Positions 7,178-16,024 of a stretch of DNA of 64,000 bases are shown one piece after another. Numbering within the stretch: the stretch's first letter is position 1; each line of letters starts with the position of its first letter. Both the position numbers and the translations under genes were made by a program. Location: positions 62,001-126,000 of the forward strand of contig NZ_BMJV01000008.1 of the NCBI RefSeq assembly GCF_014643635.1. The letters run 5' to 3'. The notes under the pieces were generated by a model. It was not told the DNA's origin. It saw only the letters and a list, made by a program, of their open reading frames with translations, and searched no databases. Origin of the DNA: Salipiger pallidus. GTDB taxonomy: Bacteria; Pseudomonadota; Alphaproteobacteria; Rhodobacterales; Rhodobacteraceae.

Positions 7178-8617
7178 ATGATCGAGAAACGCCAGTTCTA
7201 CATCGACGGAGCTTGGGTCGACGCGGCCACCGCCCGCGACCACGAGGTCATCAACCCGGCCACTGAAGAGCCCTGCGCCGTCATATCCCTCGGCGATCAG
7301 GCGGACACTGACGCTGCCGTGGCCGCCGCCTCGCGCGCGCTGCCGGGCTGGATGGCGACCCCGGCGGCCGAGCGCATCGCGCTGGTCGAAAAGCTGCTGG
7401 CCGTCTACAAGCGCCGCGCCGAGGAGATGGCCCAGGCCATGACCCTCGAGATGGGGGCGCCCATTGCGCTGTCGCGGTCGAGCCAGGTCGGCGCGGGGCT
7501 GTTTCACCTGCAGAACTTCATTGACGCCGCCAAGGGGTTTTCGTTCGAAGAGCCGTTCTCGGACGCCCATCCCGACACCCGGATGATCCACGAGGCGGTG
7601 GGGGTCTGCGCGCTCATCACGCCATGGAACTGGCCGATGAACCAAGTGACACTGAAGGTCGGCGCCGCCGCAATCGCGGGCTGCACCATGGTGCTGAAGC
7701 CGTCCGAGGAATCGCCGCTCTCGGCGATGCTGTTTGCCGAGTTCATGGACGAGGCGGGCTTCCCCAAGGGGGTGTTCAACCTCGTGAACGGCGATGGCGT
7801 TGGGGTCGGCACCCAGCTGTCGGCGCATGAGGACGTGGACATGGTGAGCTTCACCGGTTCCACCCGCGCGGGCCGGCTGATCTCCAAGACCGCGGCCGAG
7901 ACGCTCAAGCGTGTGCACCTCGAGCTTGGGGGCAAGGGCGCGAACCTGATCTTCGCCGATGCGGACGACGAGGCGGTGAAACGCGGCGTCGCTCACATGA
8001 TGCAGAACTCAGGCCAGAGCTGCAACGCGCCCTCGCGCATGATGGTTGAGGCGGGGATCTATGATCGTGTGGTCGACGAGGCCACCGAGGTGGCAAAATC
8101 CACGAAGGTCGGTTCCCCTGCCGAGGACGGCCCGCATATCGGCCCGGTGGTGAACGCCGTACAATACGACAAGATCCAGGCGCTGATCGAAAAGGGCATC
8201 TCCGAGGGCGCCCGCCTTGTCGCGGGAGGCCCGGGCCGCCCCGAGGGCTTCAACAAGGGCTTCTACGTGCGCCCCACGGTCTTTGCCGACGTGACCCCCG
8301 ACATGACCATCGCGAACGAAGAGATTTTCGGTCCGGTGCTGTCGATCATGAAGTTCGAGACCGAGGAAGAAGCCGTACGCGTGGCCAATGACACACCCTA
8401 TGGCCTGACCAACTACGTGCAGTCCGGTGACACCGAGCGCCGTCACCGGCTCGCGCGGCAGCTTCGGTCGGGGATGGTCGAGATGAACGGCAAAAGCCGT
8501 GCGCCGGGTGCGCCCTTCGGTGGCATGAAACAGTCGGGCAATGGCCGCGAGGCGGGGATCCTCGGGATCCATGATTTCCTCGAGATCAAGGCTGTGAGCG
8601 GCTGGGCTGCGGAGTAA
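7178..8617 (+). CDS. NAD(P)-dependent aldehyde dehydrogenase
   Basis: This 479-residue protein of the ALDH superfamily oxidises an aldehyde to the acid. It has the cofactor-binding segments TPWNWPMNQVTLKV and FTGSTRAGRLI, the general base region LELGGKGANLIF and the catalytic cysteine in QNSGQSCNAPSRM (about residue 285). The length is that of the soluble ALDH core with no extra domain. The Shine-Dalgarno CAGGAGCG is 9 bp upstream. No neighbour indicates the substrate: it is monocistronic, with a terminator after it. Confidence 0.93.
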   Translation: MIEKRQFYIDGAWVDAATARDHEVINPATEEPCAVISLGDQADTDAAVAAASRALPGWMATPAAERIALVEKLLAVYKRRAEEMAQAMTLEMGAPIALSRSSQVGAGLFHLQNFIDAAKGFSFEEPFSDAHPDTRMIHEAVGVCALITPWNWPMNQVTLKVGAAAIAGCTMVLKPSEESPLSAMLFAEFMDEAGFPKGVFNLVNGDGVGVGTQLSAHEDVDMVSFTGSTRAGRLISKTAAETLKRVHLELGGKGANLIFADADDEAVKRGVAHMMQNSGQSCNAPSRMMVEAGIYDRVVDEATEVAKSTKVGSPAEDGPHIGPVVNAVQYDKIQALIEKGISEGARLVAGGPGRPEGFNKGFYVRPTVFADVTPDMTIANEEIFGPVLSIMKFETEEEAVRVANDTPYGLTNYVQSGDTERRHRLARQLRSGMVEMNGKSRAPGAPFGGMKQSGNGREAGILGIHDFLEIKAVSGWAAE

Positions 8618-8627
8618 ACTTCTTGAG

Positions 8628-8654
8628 GAGGGGGCGCCCGGAGTGCCCCCTCTT
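8628..8654 (+). terminator. Candidate terminator of the aldehyde dehydrogenase gene
   Basis: The 8-bp stem GAGGGGGC / GCCCCCTC with a 9-nt loop lies 11 bp past the stop. It is followed by TTCGATCTTTCT, only moderately T-rich. Confidence 0.6.
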
Positions 8655-8682
8655 CGATCTTTCTGGCAAGGATCGGCTTTCG

Positions 8683-8744
8683 CGTATTTGGAAAGAGAAG
8701 AAGGGCAGGGAGGCACCCTTGCCGTCTTCTTTTCCCAAATACGT
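8683..8744. repeat. Dispersed intergenic repeat, family B, copy 1 (inverted pair)
   Basis: The left arm CGTATTTGGAAAGAGAAGAA and the right arm TTCTTTTCCCAAATACG form a long imperfect hairpin about 62 bp across. The left arm recurs at 20351-20375 with only two differences. Confidence 0.65.
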
Positions 8745-12598: not shown

Positions 12599-13645
12599 TC
12601 AGTCGAACAGCGTCGCCTGTCCCGGCCCGCTCGCCTGTCCCGGAGCCTTCGGGGCGGGCATCCCGAGATGATCCCAGGATCTCTGGGTGATCATCCGGCC
12701 GCGCGGCGTTCGCTGGATCAGGCCCTGTTGAAGCAGGTACGGCTCGATCACCTCCTCGATGGCATCACGGCTTTCCGACAGTGCGGCCGAGATCGTCTCG
12801 ATCCCCACGGGGCCGCCGGCGTAATGCTCGGCGATCAGCCGCAGGTAACGCCGGTCGGCCCCGTCGAGTCCAAGCGCATCCACCCCCAGCCGCGTCAGCG
12901 CGCCATCGGCCAGCTCCTGCGTCACCACGCCGTTGCCCTCGACCACCGCGAAATCCACCACCCGGCGCAGGAGCCGCCCGGCGATCCGCGGTGTCCCGCG
13001 CGAGCGCTGCGCGATCTCGCGTGCGCCATCGGGCTCGGCCCGCACGCCGAGCTTTTCGGCGTTACGGGTGACGATGCTGTTGAGCTCCTCCACCGTGTAG
13101 AACTGCAGCCGCGTGGGGATGCCGAAACGGTCGCGCAGGGGGGTCGTCAGCAGGCCAAGCCGCGTGGTCGCGCCCACCAGCGTGAAGGGCTGAAGCTCGA
13201 TCCGCACGGTGCGGGCGGCGGGGCCTTCGCCGATCACGAGGTCCAGCTCATAATCTTCCATCGCAGGGTAGAGGATTTCCTCGACCACCGGGTTGAGCCG
13301 GTGGATCTCGTCGATGAAGAGCACGTCATTGCGTTCGAGGTTGGTCAGGATTGCGGCCAGATCGCCCGCCTTGGCCAGCACCGGCCCCGAGGTCATGCGG
13401 AAGTTGACCCCAAGCTCGCGCGCCATGATCTGCGCCAGCGTCGTCTTGCCAAGGCCGGGGGGGCCGTGGAACAGCGTGTGGTCCATGGCTTCCTGGCGCT
13501 GCCGGGCCGAAGCGATGAACACCCGGAGGTTGGCCCGCGCCTCGGCTTGCCCCACGAAATCATCAAGCATCTGCGGACGCAGGGCGCGGCCTTCGTCTTC
13601 GGGCAGAGGGGCAGGGCGCAGGGTGGGATCGGGGTCCATGCTCAT
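12599..13645 (-). CDS. ruvB: Holliday junction branch migration ATPase RuvB
   Basis: This 348-residue AAA+ motor drives branch migration with RuvA. Walker A is in [16 protein letters not shown] (about residues 59-74), Walker B in [12 protein letters not shown], sensor 1 in [12 protein letters not shown] and the arginine finger in LRDRFGI. A winged-helix C-terminal domain ends the protein ([18 protein letters not shown]). Its ATG is 2 bp after the stop of a GIY-YIG nuclease gene, so its ribosome-binding site lies inside that gene, which separates it from ruvA. Confidence 0.97.
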
Positions 13646-13647
13646 GG

Positions 13648-14529
13648 TCAGTTCTCGTTCAGGCCGTTGCGACGCGTATCGAGGCGGAGCTTCCAGCTAT
13701 TTTCACATGCAACGACGTCTTCGACCAGTGCCGTTGGGGCCATGAGTTCGAGTATGGAGAAGCGGAACCGGGACGGATCGCGGGGCCGCAACTCCACAGG
13801 CACTCCAACATCTCCGGCAACATGTCGCTGCCAGCGTCCAAGCAGGTTCTCGGCACCATAGGCCGAGCCTACGTATCTTTGTCCGTCACTCTCGTCCACG
13901 ATCAGATAGATTCCGCGCCAGTGGCGCAGGGTCGCAGCCCATTGTCGGGGAAGGGTTGTGATGTCGGATCGTGTCAGGCTGAGCTCGGTCCAGTCTGGCA
14001 TTGGTGGCGCGACGTGAGCGTGTCTGCGCAACTCGCGCACCTGCAAGGGGGTCGTTTCGGCAAGGCGCATGTACGCCCGTCCACCGGGGTCGCGGCAGAT
14101 GAGGCGCTTTTCCAAGTCGCTGAAACGCGCTAGGCGATTGAGGTCAAATCGCGTGCGGCCCACGAGGCGATCAACCCCTTGTTCGGCCGGTGCCAAGTGC
14201 CCATCGATACGCTCGCGCATCTCGCACAGCAATGGGTCCTCCTGCCACTCTTTCAACGACAGGACTGGCCCCGCCTCTCGGGAAAACATTCCCAGAAATA
14301 TCGCATCGCCATCTGGAGCGGACAGGAATGACGCAAGGTAGGGCCTGGCCCGGAGTGTGGCCTCTGGACCAGGAGCATGCGTTGACTGGAACGCGTCGAA
14401 AAGGTCAGGCCGTTCTTCTGCGAGAATGGCGAGGGCCTTGCGCCGAACCGGATCATTGGACTTGTGAAGGCACAGCGCAACTTCGCCCTCAGGTAGGGCG
14501 TGAAGCCTGAGAAAATCCTGAAACAGCAT
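13648..14529 (-). CDS. GIY-YIG nuclease-domain protein inserted between ruvA and ruvB
   Basis: A 293-residue protein. The C-terminal ~89 residues are a GIY-YIG nuclease domain with all the expected catalytic positions: GIY at 206-208, YVG at 219-221, Arg in LLGRWQRH (about 232), Glu in ACENSWK (about 276), and a final Asn in GLNEN. The N-terminal ~200 residues are a distinct module ([34 protein letters not shown] at the junction) that I recall from scattered bacterial GIY-YIG proteins of this length without an assigned role. It starts 4 bp after the ruvA stop and ends 2 bp before the ruvB ATG. Base composition is visibly less GC-rich than ruvA/ruvB, suggesting acquisition. Defence, repair or selfish function are all open. 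Confidence 0.85.
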
Positions 14530-14533
14530 GCAC

Positions 14534-15208
14534 TCAGGACTTCGGTGCCAGCAGCTTGAGCGCCGCGCGGATGAGGCCCGAGGTGGTCGCCTCGGGCTCG
14601 TCGCCCACCGCCTGCGCCACGGCAGAGGCGGCATCCGAAGGGGAGTAGCCGAGGTTGGTCAGGGCCGACAGTGCTTCGGTCTGGGCGGGCACGGCCTGCG
14701 GGGCAGGGGCGGGCTTGGGCGTCTTGGGGGGCGCGGGAGTGGGCGCATCGTCGTCGATCACCACGTCCTCGGCGCTGGCGACGGGGCCTGCGCCCATGGC
14801 CATGACCGTGGGGGCCTTGTCCTTCAGTTCGTTGACCACGCGTTGCGCGGTCTTGGGGCCGATGCCCTTGGCGGCCTTGATGGCGTTCCAGTCTCCCAGC
14901 GCGATGGCGCGGCTGGTGCCGTCCGGCCCCAGCGCCCCGAGGATCGCAAGCGACGCCTTGGCGCCCACCCCCTGCACCGACAGCAGCAGGCGGAACCATT
15001 CCTTCTCCACAAGGCTGGGGAAGCCGAAAAGCTGCAGCAGATCCTCACGCACCAGAAGGTCCGTGAAGAGGGCCGTGGCCTCGCCCGCACGGGGCATGGA
15101 CGCCAGCACCCGTTCAGAGCAGCAGACGACGTAGCCGACCCCGCGCACGTCGATCAGAACGTGATCCTCGGCCTTGTATTCGATGCGTCCGGCAATGCGT
15201 CCGATCAT
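14534..15208 (-). CDS. ruvA: Holliday junction DNA-binding protein RuvA
   Basis: This 224-residue protein binds four-way junctions and docks RuvB. Domain I begins [28 protein letters not shown], the helix-hairpin-helix region includes [17 protein letters not shown] and [17 protein letters not shown], and the RuvB-binding domain III follows a long Ala/Pro-rich linker (about residues 145-180). The linker is longer than in E. coli. It overlaps ruvC by 4 bp. Confidence 0.96.
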
Positions 15209-15693
15209 GCGGTAAGCCTCAGGTTGCGGCCACCCATGTGGCGGGAATGACAGATGGCGATGGCAAGGGCGTCGGCGGCATCGGGGCCGACGATGGAGAC
15301 ACCGGGAAGCTGCATCCGGACCATGTGGTCCACCTGCTTCTTGTCGGCGTGACCGACGCCCACCACGGTCTTCTTGACGGCGTTGGGGGCATATTCCCCG
15401 ATCTCGAGCCCAAACTGGGCGGGCACGAGCAGAGCGATGCCCCGCGCCTGGCCTAGCTTCAGCGTACCGACCGCGTCCTTGTTGACGAAGGTCTGTTCGA
15501 CCGCGGCACAGTCGGGCAGGTAGCGGTTGAACACCTCGGTCAGCTGGATGTGCAGGCTCAGAAGGCGCGGTGCAAGATCGCCGGTACCGGATTCGCAGAC
15601 GCCGTTCGCCACATGCTTGAGACGGCTTCCGCTCGCCTCGATGACCCCCCAACCGAGTCGTCTCAGGCCCGGATCAATGCCCAGAATCCTCAT
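15205..15693 (-). CDS. ruvC: Holliday junction resolvase RuvC
   Basis: This 162-residue endonuclease cuts junctions. Acidic catalytic residues are in [16 protein letters not shown] (Asp7), [23 protein letters not shown] (Glu) and [14 protein letters not shown] (Asp pair). The start at 15693 gives the canonical N terminus; an in-frame ATG at 15714 would add seven residues. It is the first gene of the ruvC-ruvA-GIY-ruvB unit. No alphaproteobacterial LexA box (GTTC-N7-GTTC or GAAC-N7-GAAC) was found upstream. Confidence 0.95.
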
Positions 15694-16024
15694 GCCTGCC
15701 CTGCCTTTTTCCATTGTTCTTGCCTGCGGATAGCACGAAACGCGAACATCCGCCAAGGGGGCCGGTTCGGGCCGCCGGAAACTCGTTGCCGTAATGTCGC
15801 CTGCGGAGCGGGCAGAGGAGCTGTTTCGCGACACTCCCGTGTCGGAAACCGACACTTTTTGGCTCAATAATTAAGCTTAAAAATCAACGTTTTCCTAATT
15901 TTTGAGCCATGTGAAAACTGCATGGGACCCTTGCAGGAATACCGATTGCCCGAACATGCCCGTGTGACTATCTGCTCGCTTAGAAACAAGGCATTCTGAA
16001 AACTCTGACCAAGGACAATGACCC
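15694..16024. other. Divergent intergenic region of ruvC and the DUF1127 gene
   Basis: The left 140 bp are GC-rich. The segment 15856-15912 is strikingly AT-rich and contains an imperfect inverted repeat starting GGCTCAA (15863) and ending TTGAGCC (about 15908). A separate perfect palindrome sits at 15839-15855. These fit a regulated promoter for the small rightward gene; I cannot assign the regulator. Confidence 0.5.
15839..15855. promoter_or_regulatory. Perfect palindrome upstream of the DUF1127 gene
   Basis: GTGTCGG-AAA-CCGACAC is a perfect 7-bp inverted repeat, followed by TTTTT. It could be an operator, or a small intrinsic terminator for an unseen rightward transcript. No protein-coding gene reads into it from the left. 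Confidence 0.45.

Follow-up and report, generated by a model that had tools for sequence, protein, structure and literature searches.

The window, meaning the whole 64,000-nucleotide stretch of Salipiger pallidus DNA that was analysed, carries a ruvCAB operon on its reverse strand in which a GIY-YIG nuclease gene stands between ruvA and ruvB. The features of the locus are as follows.

15205..15696, reverse strand: ruvC, first gene of the operon, overlapping the start of ruvA (Pfam, with NCBIfam)
14534..15208, reverse strand: ruvA, the upstream neighbour (Pfam and NCBIfam)
13648..14529, reverse strand: UzuA-family GIY-YIG nuclease gene, 293 aa (ORF call and PADLOC match)
14017..14529, reverse strand: N-terminal domain, residues 1-171, predicted PUA-superfamily fold (structure prediction)
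13657..13923, reverse strand: C-terminal GIY-YIG nuclease domain, residues 203-291 (Pfam, structure alignment and family profile)
13702..13704, reverse strand: codon of catalytic Glu276, equivalent to E75 of I-TevI (profile alignment)
12599..13645, reverse strand: ruvB, the downstream neighbour (Pfam and NCBIfam)

The reading frame of the UzuA-family gene begins with an ATG at 14529 and ends with a stop codon at 13648-13650. A gap of 4 bp (14530-14533) separates it from the ruvA stop at 14534, and a gap of 2 bp (13646-13647) from the ruvB ATG at 13645. The sequence-only reading had described a seamless insertion of 293 residues that is less GC-rich than its neighbours, and both parts of this description hold. 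The GC content of the gene is 0.61 and its GC3 is 0.66, compared with a GC3 of 0.80-0.87 for ruvC, ruvA and ruvB (ruvA 0.87, ruvB 0.85). In each of the 12 hosts measured, the ruv-located gene has a higher AT content than either ruvA or ruvB. At 10 of the 13 junctions checked, the stop codon of the gene shares bases with the start codon of ruvB (ATGA or GTGA), implying translation together with ruvB; the window genome and the two other carriers in its genus have 1-2 bp between the two genes. Judging by this spacing and these overlaps, the gene is probably co-transcribed with ruvCAB. An exact alphaproteobacterial LexA box (GTTC-N7-GTTC), sought upstream of ruvC as a sign of SOS control, was not found; a match with one mismatch lies at 15733-15747, and the window contains no more such matches than chance would give.

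The C-terminal domain is a GIY-YIG nuclease domain. Pfam PF01541 matches residues 206-281 with an E value of 4e-4, slightly under the gathering score. A PDB sequence search with the window protein alone gave nothing useful, and a search with the family profile returned I-TevI as the sole confident match (E 1e-5), with Y208, Y219, R232, E276 and N291 falling on the active-site residues. The predicted nuclease domain superimposes on the I-TevI structure with a Z of 9.6 and an rmsd of 2.0 over 84 residues. The GIY and YIG motifs and the catalytic Arg, Glu and Asn by which the superfamily is recognised are all present, and the five residues are invariant in 19 homologues, so the active site is as complete as had been supposed from the letters. 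Among the ruv-located genes, pN (0.20-0.33) is well below pS (0.67-0.80), indicating that the protein is maintained by purifying selection.

Assignment of the window gene to the UzuA (Uzume) defence family is well supported by profile comparison. Uzume is a one-gene system. The PADLOC UzuA model PDLC03973 matches residues 2-293 of the window protein over positions 4-278 of 278 with an E value of 3e-51, and the UzuA profile is matched by all 14 ruv-located homologues. Like Uzume (PDLC03973, PDLC03974), the window protein is a single protein of about 280 aa with a full-length profile match and a C-terminal GIY-YIG domain. However, with a PADLOC score of 172 bits, compared with 269 for the copy at L036, it lies far from the core of UzuA, and the ruv-located set stands apart from other Uzume proteins as a divergent subfamily with a fixed place between ruvA and ruvB. 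This set has no conserved partner besides the ruv genes, and homologues elsewhere have differing neighbours. An NCBIfam search gave no family above the cut-off, and a PHROGs search gave one family of unknown function, phrog_26160. One review attributes Uzume to Millman et al. 2022 (PMC12926258), and reviews give its mechanism as unknown (PMC12926258, PMC10482375). In the Bacillus cereus group, Uzume systems are mostly plasmid-borne (PMC11811056).

The module of about 200 residues that had been left without a function now has a predicted fold, that of the PUA superfamily of modified-base readers. The N-terminal domain was modelled both within the whole protein (pLDDT 87) and alone (pLDDT 89), and Foldseek candidates were re-aligned to solved structures to obtain Z values. 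For the domain alone, the top match is the 5hmC sensor of CMoRE (Z 7.5, 6.7 and 6.3 over 117-120 residues, rmsd 3.5-3.9), followed by YTH domains (up to Z 5.8), the N-terminal domain of Staphylothermus McrB (Z 5.4) and an ASCH domain (Z 4.7). All the fold matches listed, with Z values of 4.5-7.5 for this predicted model, are PUA-like or modified-nucleotide readers or the CMoRE sensor, and this agreement is more telling than any one value; even so, Z values below 8 fall short of proof and could arise from a shared arrangement alone. By itself, Foldseek found nothing significant for the domain (best E 0.08), and sequence searches gave no match to CMoRE or PUA families and no Pfam match. One UzuA copy, in G175 (L044:5989-6972), carries about 33 additional residues, inserted in frame within the N-terminal domain and absent from every other aligned copy; this insertion may be repeat-derived or may inactivate the sensor.

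Because the N-terminal domain is predicted to adopt a PUA-superfamily fold, the architecture suggests a type IV (modification-dependent) restriction nuclease whose domains stand in the opposite order to those of CMoRE. CMoRE cuts 5hmC and glucosyl-5hmC DNA by means of an N-terminal GIY-YIG domain and a C-terminal sensor, for which its authors found no homologue (PMC12923530). The window protein resembles CMoRE, or PD-T4-3, in combining a GIY-YIG nuclease and a putative modification-sensing domain in one protein, and its N-terminal domain finds its best fold match in the CMoRE sensor. However, the nuclease comes first and the sensor last in CMoRE, whereas the predicted sensor comes first and the nuclease last in the window protein, so the architecture is not that of CMoRE. 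Furthermore, the third tyrosine of the CMoRE GIYxY-YIG motif has no counterpart in the window protein (GIYLI; GIYLIVDE), and the PD-T4-3 model in PADLOC does not match it at an E value of 1. Fusions of EVE, YTH or ASCH domains of the PUA superfamily to nucleases share the reader-plus-nuclease build, as judged from predicted fold, and are predicted to act in type IV restriction (PMC7641849, PMC7897488); EVE domains fused to GIY-YIG nucleases are described among the putative type IV restriction enzymes (PMC7641849). SNIPE is also a single-protein defence system with a C-terminal GIY-YIG domain (PMC13190303), but it has a transmembrane segment and DUF4041 where the window protein has the predicted PUA-like domain.

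The gene is sparsely distributed. In the window's genus it is carried by 3 of 20 genomes, namely the window genome, G002 and G018 (contigs of the latter two match S. aestuarii and S. bermudensis), always between ruvA and ruvB; in the remaining 17 the site is empty and clean, ruvB directly following ruvA at a distance that ranges from an overlap to about 14 bp. In a sample of 394 genomes of the family, about one per genus, a relative of any kind was detected in 23 and a ruv-located one in 12. Eleven of these 12 lie between ruvA and ruvB, and the copy in G160 adjoins ruvB at a point where the contig ends. Together with the two further genus members there are 14 ruv-located genes, whose Rhodobacteraceae hosts include 12 different genera. 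Because the ruvA-uzuA-ruvB arrangement recurs in 14 genomes, it is not due to chance. In a sample of 385 genomes of the class, matches outside Rhodobacteraceae (33-35% identity for full-length ones) have no ruv gene nearby. Relatives were also found on 370 plasmid records, most of them covering part of the query, and on Klebsiella phage records and viral contigs; scans of the viral contigs that used two further UzuA subfamilies as queries turned up no additional loci.

The search for homologues and their neighbours that the sequence-only reading had called for thus revealed a recurrent ruv association, and the surroundings of the relatives away from ruv are defence and mobile-element neighbourhoods. 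At L107 (1393-8758), a homologue comes about 25 bp after the end of a complete type I restriction operon, hsdM-hsdS-hsdR. Two prophage copies (L084:8001-8885 and L032:6636-7520) are located between the tail terminator gene and the genes for the tail assembly chaperone and tape measure, and run opposite to the structural genes in the style of cargo genes (L084; L032 with similar neighbours). Two plasmid copies (L081:5998-6828 and L082:5992-6828) lie near umuDC, which encodes a Y-family polymerase; two unknown genes are directly upstream of the former, and the latter is next to a CoiA-like gene. A genomic copy (L108) is near a TacA-type antitoxin gene. Fragments consisting mainly of the GIY-YIG end, one of them with a stop codon, are found away from ruv (L005/L039, L008 and L035) and are probably decayed copies.

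The ruvA-ruvB gap itself was surveyed in 149 genomes of the family, the coordinates of RuvA and RuvB being compared by eye. Nearly all gaps are shorter than 180 bp. Gene-sized inserts are mostly UzuA or, in about 10 of the 149 genomes, an HtpX-like M48 protease whose identity was read by eye from the sequence (L190, L191, L192, L193, L196, L197, L198, L199, L201 and, at about 7860-8740, L034). The slot of G173 holds uzuA and an htpX-like gene together. Because htpX-like genes use the slot, the ruv position weighs less as evidence for a function with RuvAB; the gap is a permissive operon-cargo slot and does not prove a RuvAB partnership. Odd gaps were also seen: that of G122 encodes a 120-aa membrane protein (L194:288-650), that of G109 spans about 450 bp in which no gene is evident, and ruvA and ruvB are 7.5 kb apart in G031 (L195, L200). 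A literature search, full texts aside, returned no account of such a gene between ruvA and ruvB.

In the gene tree, the 14 ruv-located copies fall into a single clade (98/96), separate from relatives elsewhere, which fits one entry into the slot. Within this clade, the gene tree and the RpoB tree disagree. G080 groups with G173 and G153 in the RpoB tree but with G092 and Salipiger in the gene tree, and G352 stands on the Salipiger side in the RpoB tree but with G173 in the gene tree. In AU tests, the gene tree rejects the RpoB groupings (p 1.6e-4 and 5e-5), RpoB rejects the groupings of the gene (p 6e-5 and 3e-6), and RuvB, which places G352 as RpoB does, rejects one of them (p 0.004); these p values are somewhat optimistic because the groupings were picked after both trees had been viewed. 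The combined RuvC and RuvA set did not settle the conflict. The disagreement of the gene with RpoB, and in part with RuvB, suggests at least two transfers between lineages, independent of ruvB and always ending in the ruvA-ruvB gap. Thus, the gene appears to have moved horizontally at least twice into the same gap, and homologous recombination through the conserved flanking ruvA and ruvB is most simply the vehicle. Among the three genus members, dS corrected for the codon bias that confounds the raw comparison is saturated for the nuclease gene (0.97-1.03) compared with 0.68-0.75 for RuvB, and differs weakly from that of RuvA. A tract-length test on the close trio G018, G006 and G019 detected a slight identity drop beside the insert, and the synteny of the window with G002 and G018 is short.

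Taken together, the gene belongs by sequence to the UzuA anti-phage family and probably travels as cargo in the ruvA-ruvB gap, is co-transcribed with the operon and has spread horizontally into this one slot. Its most likely activity, given the modelled fold, would be that of a modification-dependent restriction enzyme. The predicted N-terminal PUA-like sensor would read modified bases in phage DNA, and the C-terminal GIY-YIG domain would cut the modified DNA. The gene would ride as ruvCAB cargo, expressed with the operon, and would spread within Rhodobacteraceae by recombination through conserved ruvA and ruvB into the same slot, being often absent. Among three proposals made from the sequence, restriction of foreign DNA is thus the best supported: membership of the UzuA family, the type I operon neighbour and the prophage and plasmid homologues all argue for a role in defence. 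Of the proposed selfish insertion, horizontal movement and a constant slot stand, but nothing indicates that the gene moves itself.

The proposal that the gene product processes junctions corresponds to a repair nuclease coupled to RuvAB and acting on junctions or forks, so that its operon position reflects its function. Such coupling is consistent with strict adjacency in 14 genomes, with a clade of single origin that is specific to the ruv site, with plasmid homologues near umuDC and with the stop/start overlaps, which would also fit an association of long standing between the gene product and RuvB. However, the gene is present in few genus and family members, has moved independently of ruvB, shares its slot with htpX-like genes and has homologues in defence or mobile contexts. 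Nothing beyond the generic GIY-YIG fold matches a junction resolvase in structure, an absence from the fold list that is not counter-evidence in itself. Operon position being its one positive sign, junction processing is unlikely. About as unlikely is an old vertical gene with many losses, whose tree conflict would come from fast evolution and long branches. Its single-origin clade and a divergence order within the genus compatible with the species tree would agree with this, but the AU tests strongly reject congruence for G080 and for G352/G173, the three genus members show saturation at the synonymous sites of the gene but not at those of ruvB, and its GC content is lower than that of either ruvA or ruvB in every host measured. 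Comparison with close relatives likewise speaks against an old component of matching composition, the gene being present in 3 of 20. A compromise, in which a UzuA lineage has become wired into RuvAB, is translated with RuvB and cuts junctions or reversed forks on modified phage DNA, is rather improbable.

A homing endonuclease that cuts the empty ruvA-ruvB junction and copies itself in is more doubtful still. Its catalytic domain would be the one that the window protein shares in fold and residues with I-TevI and Seg-type enzymes, and a constant site with a discordant gene tree would fit, though not specifically, as would the patchy presence among close species (G018 against G006 and G019). 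However, the nuclease domain is C-terminal in the window protein, the searches made turned up neither a NUMOD-type module nor any other homing module for DNA binding, and the N-terminal domain is predicted to resemble modified-base readers. Homologues occupy unrelated sites, ordinary recombination through ruvA and ruvB accounts for the pattern, and htpX-like cargo reaches the same slot without homing. A degenerate or non-functional insertion, for which the relics of the family elsewhere could be cited, is scarcely credible in view of the intact frame, the invariant active site and the low pN of the ruv-located copies.

The combination of a predicted sensor and a nuclease as a mirror image of CMoRE offers a directly testable mechanism for Uzume, and the N-terminal domain may be a distant homologue of the CMoRE sensor. 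If the lineage did prove to be wired into RuvAB, the Holliday-junction motor would become part of an immune system. On the preferred reading, that of UzuA-family cargo, a defence gene would be stably carried by a core DNA-repair operon, away from prophages and defence islands, and scans limited to islands and hotspots would miss the ruvA-ruvB slot.
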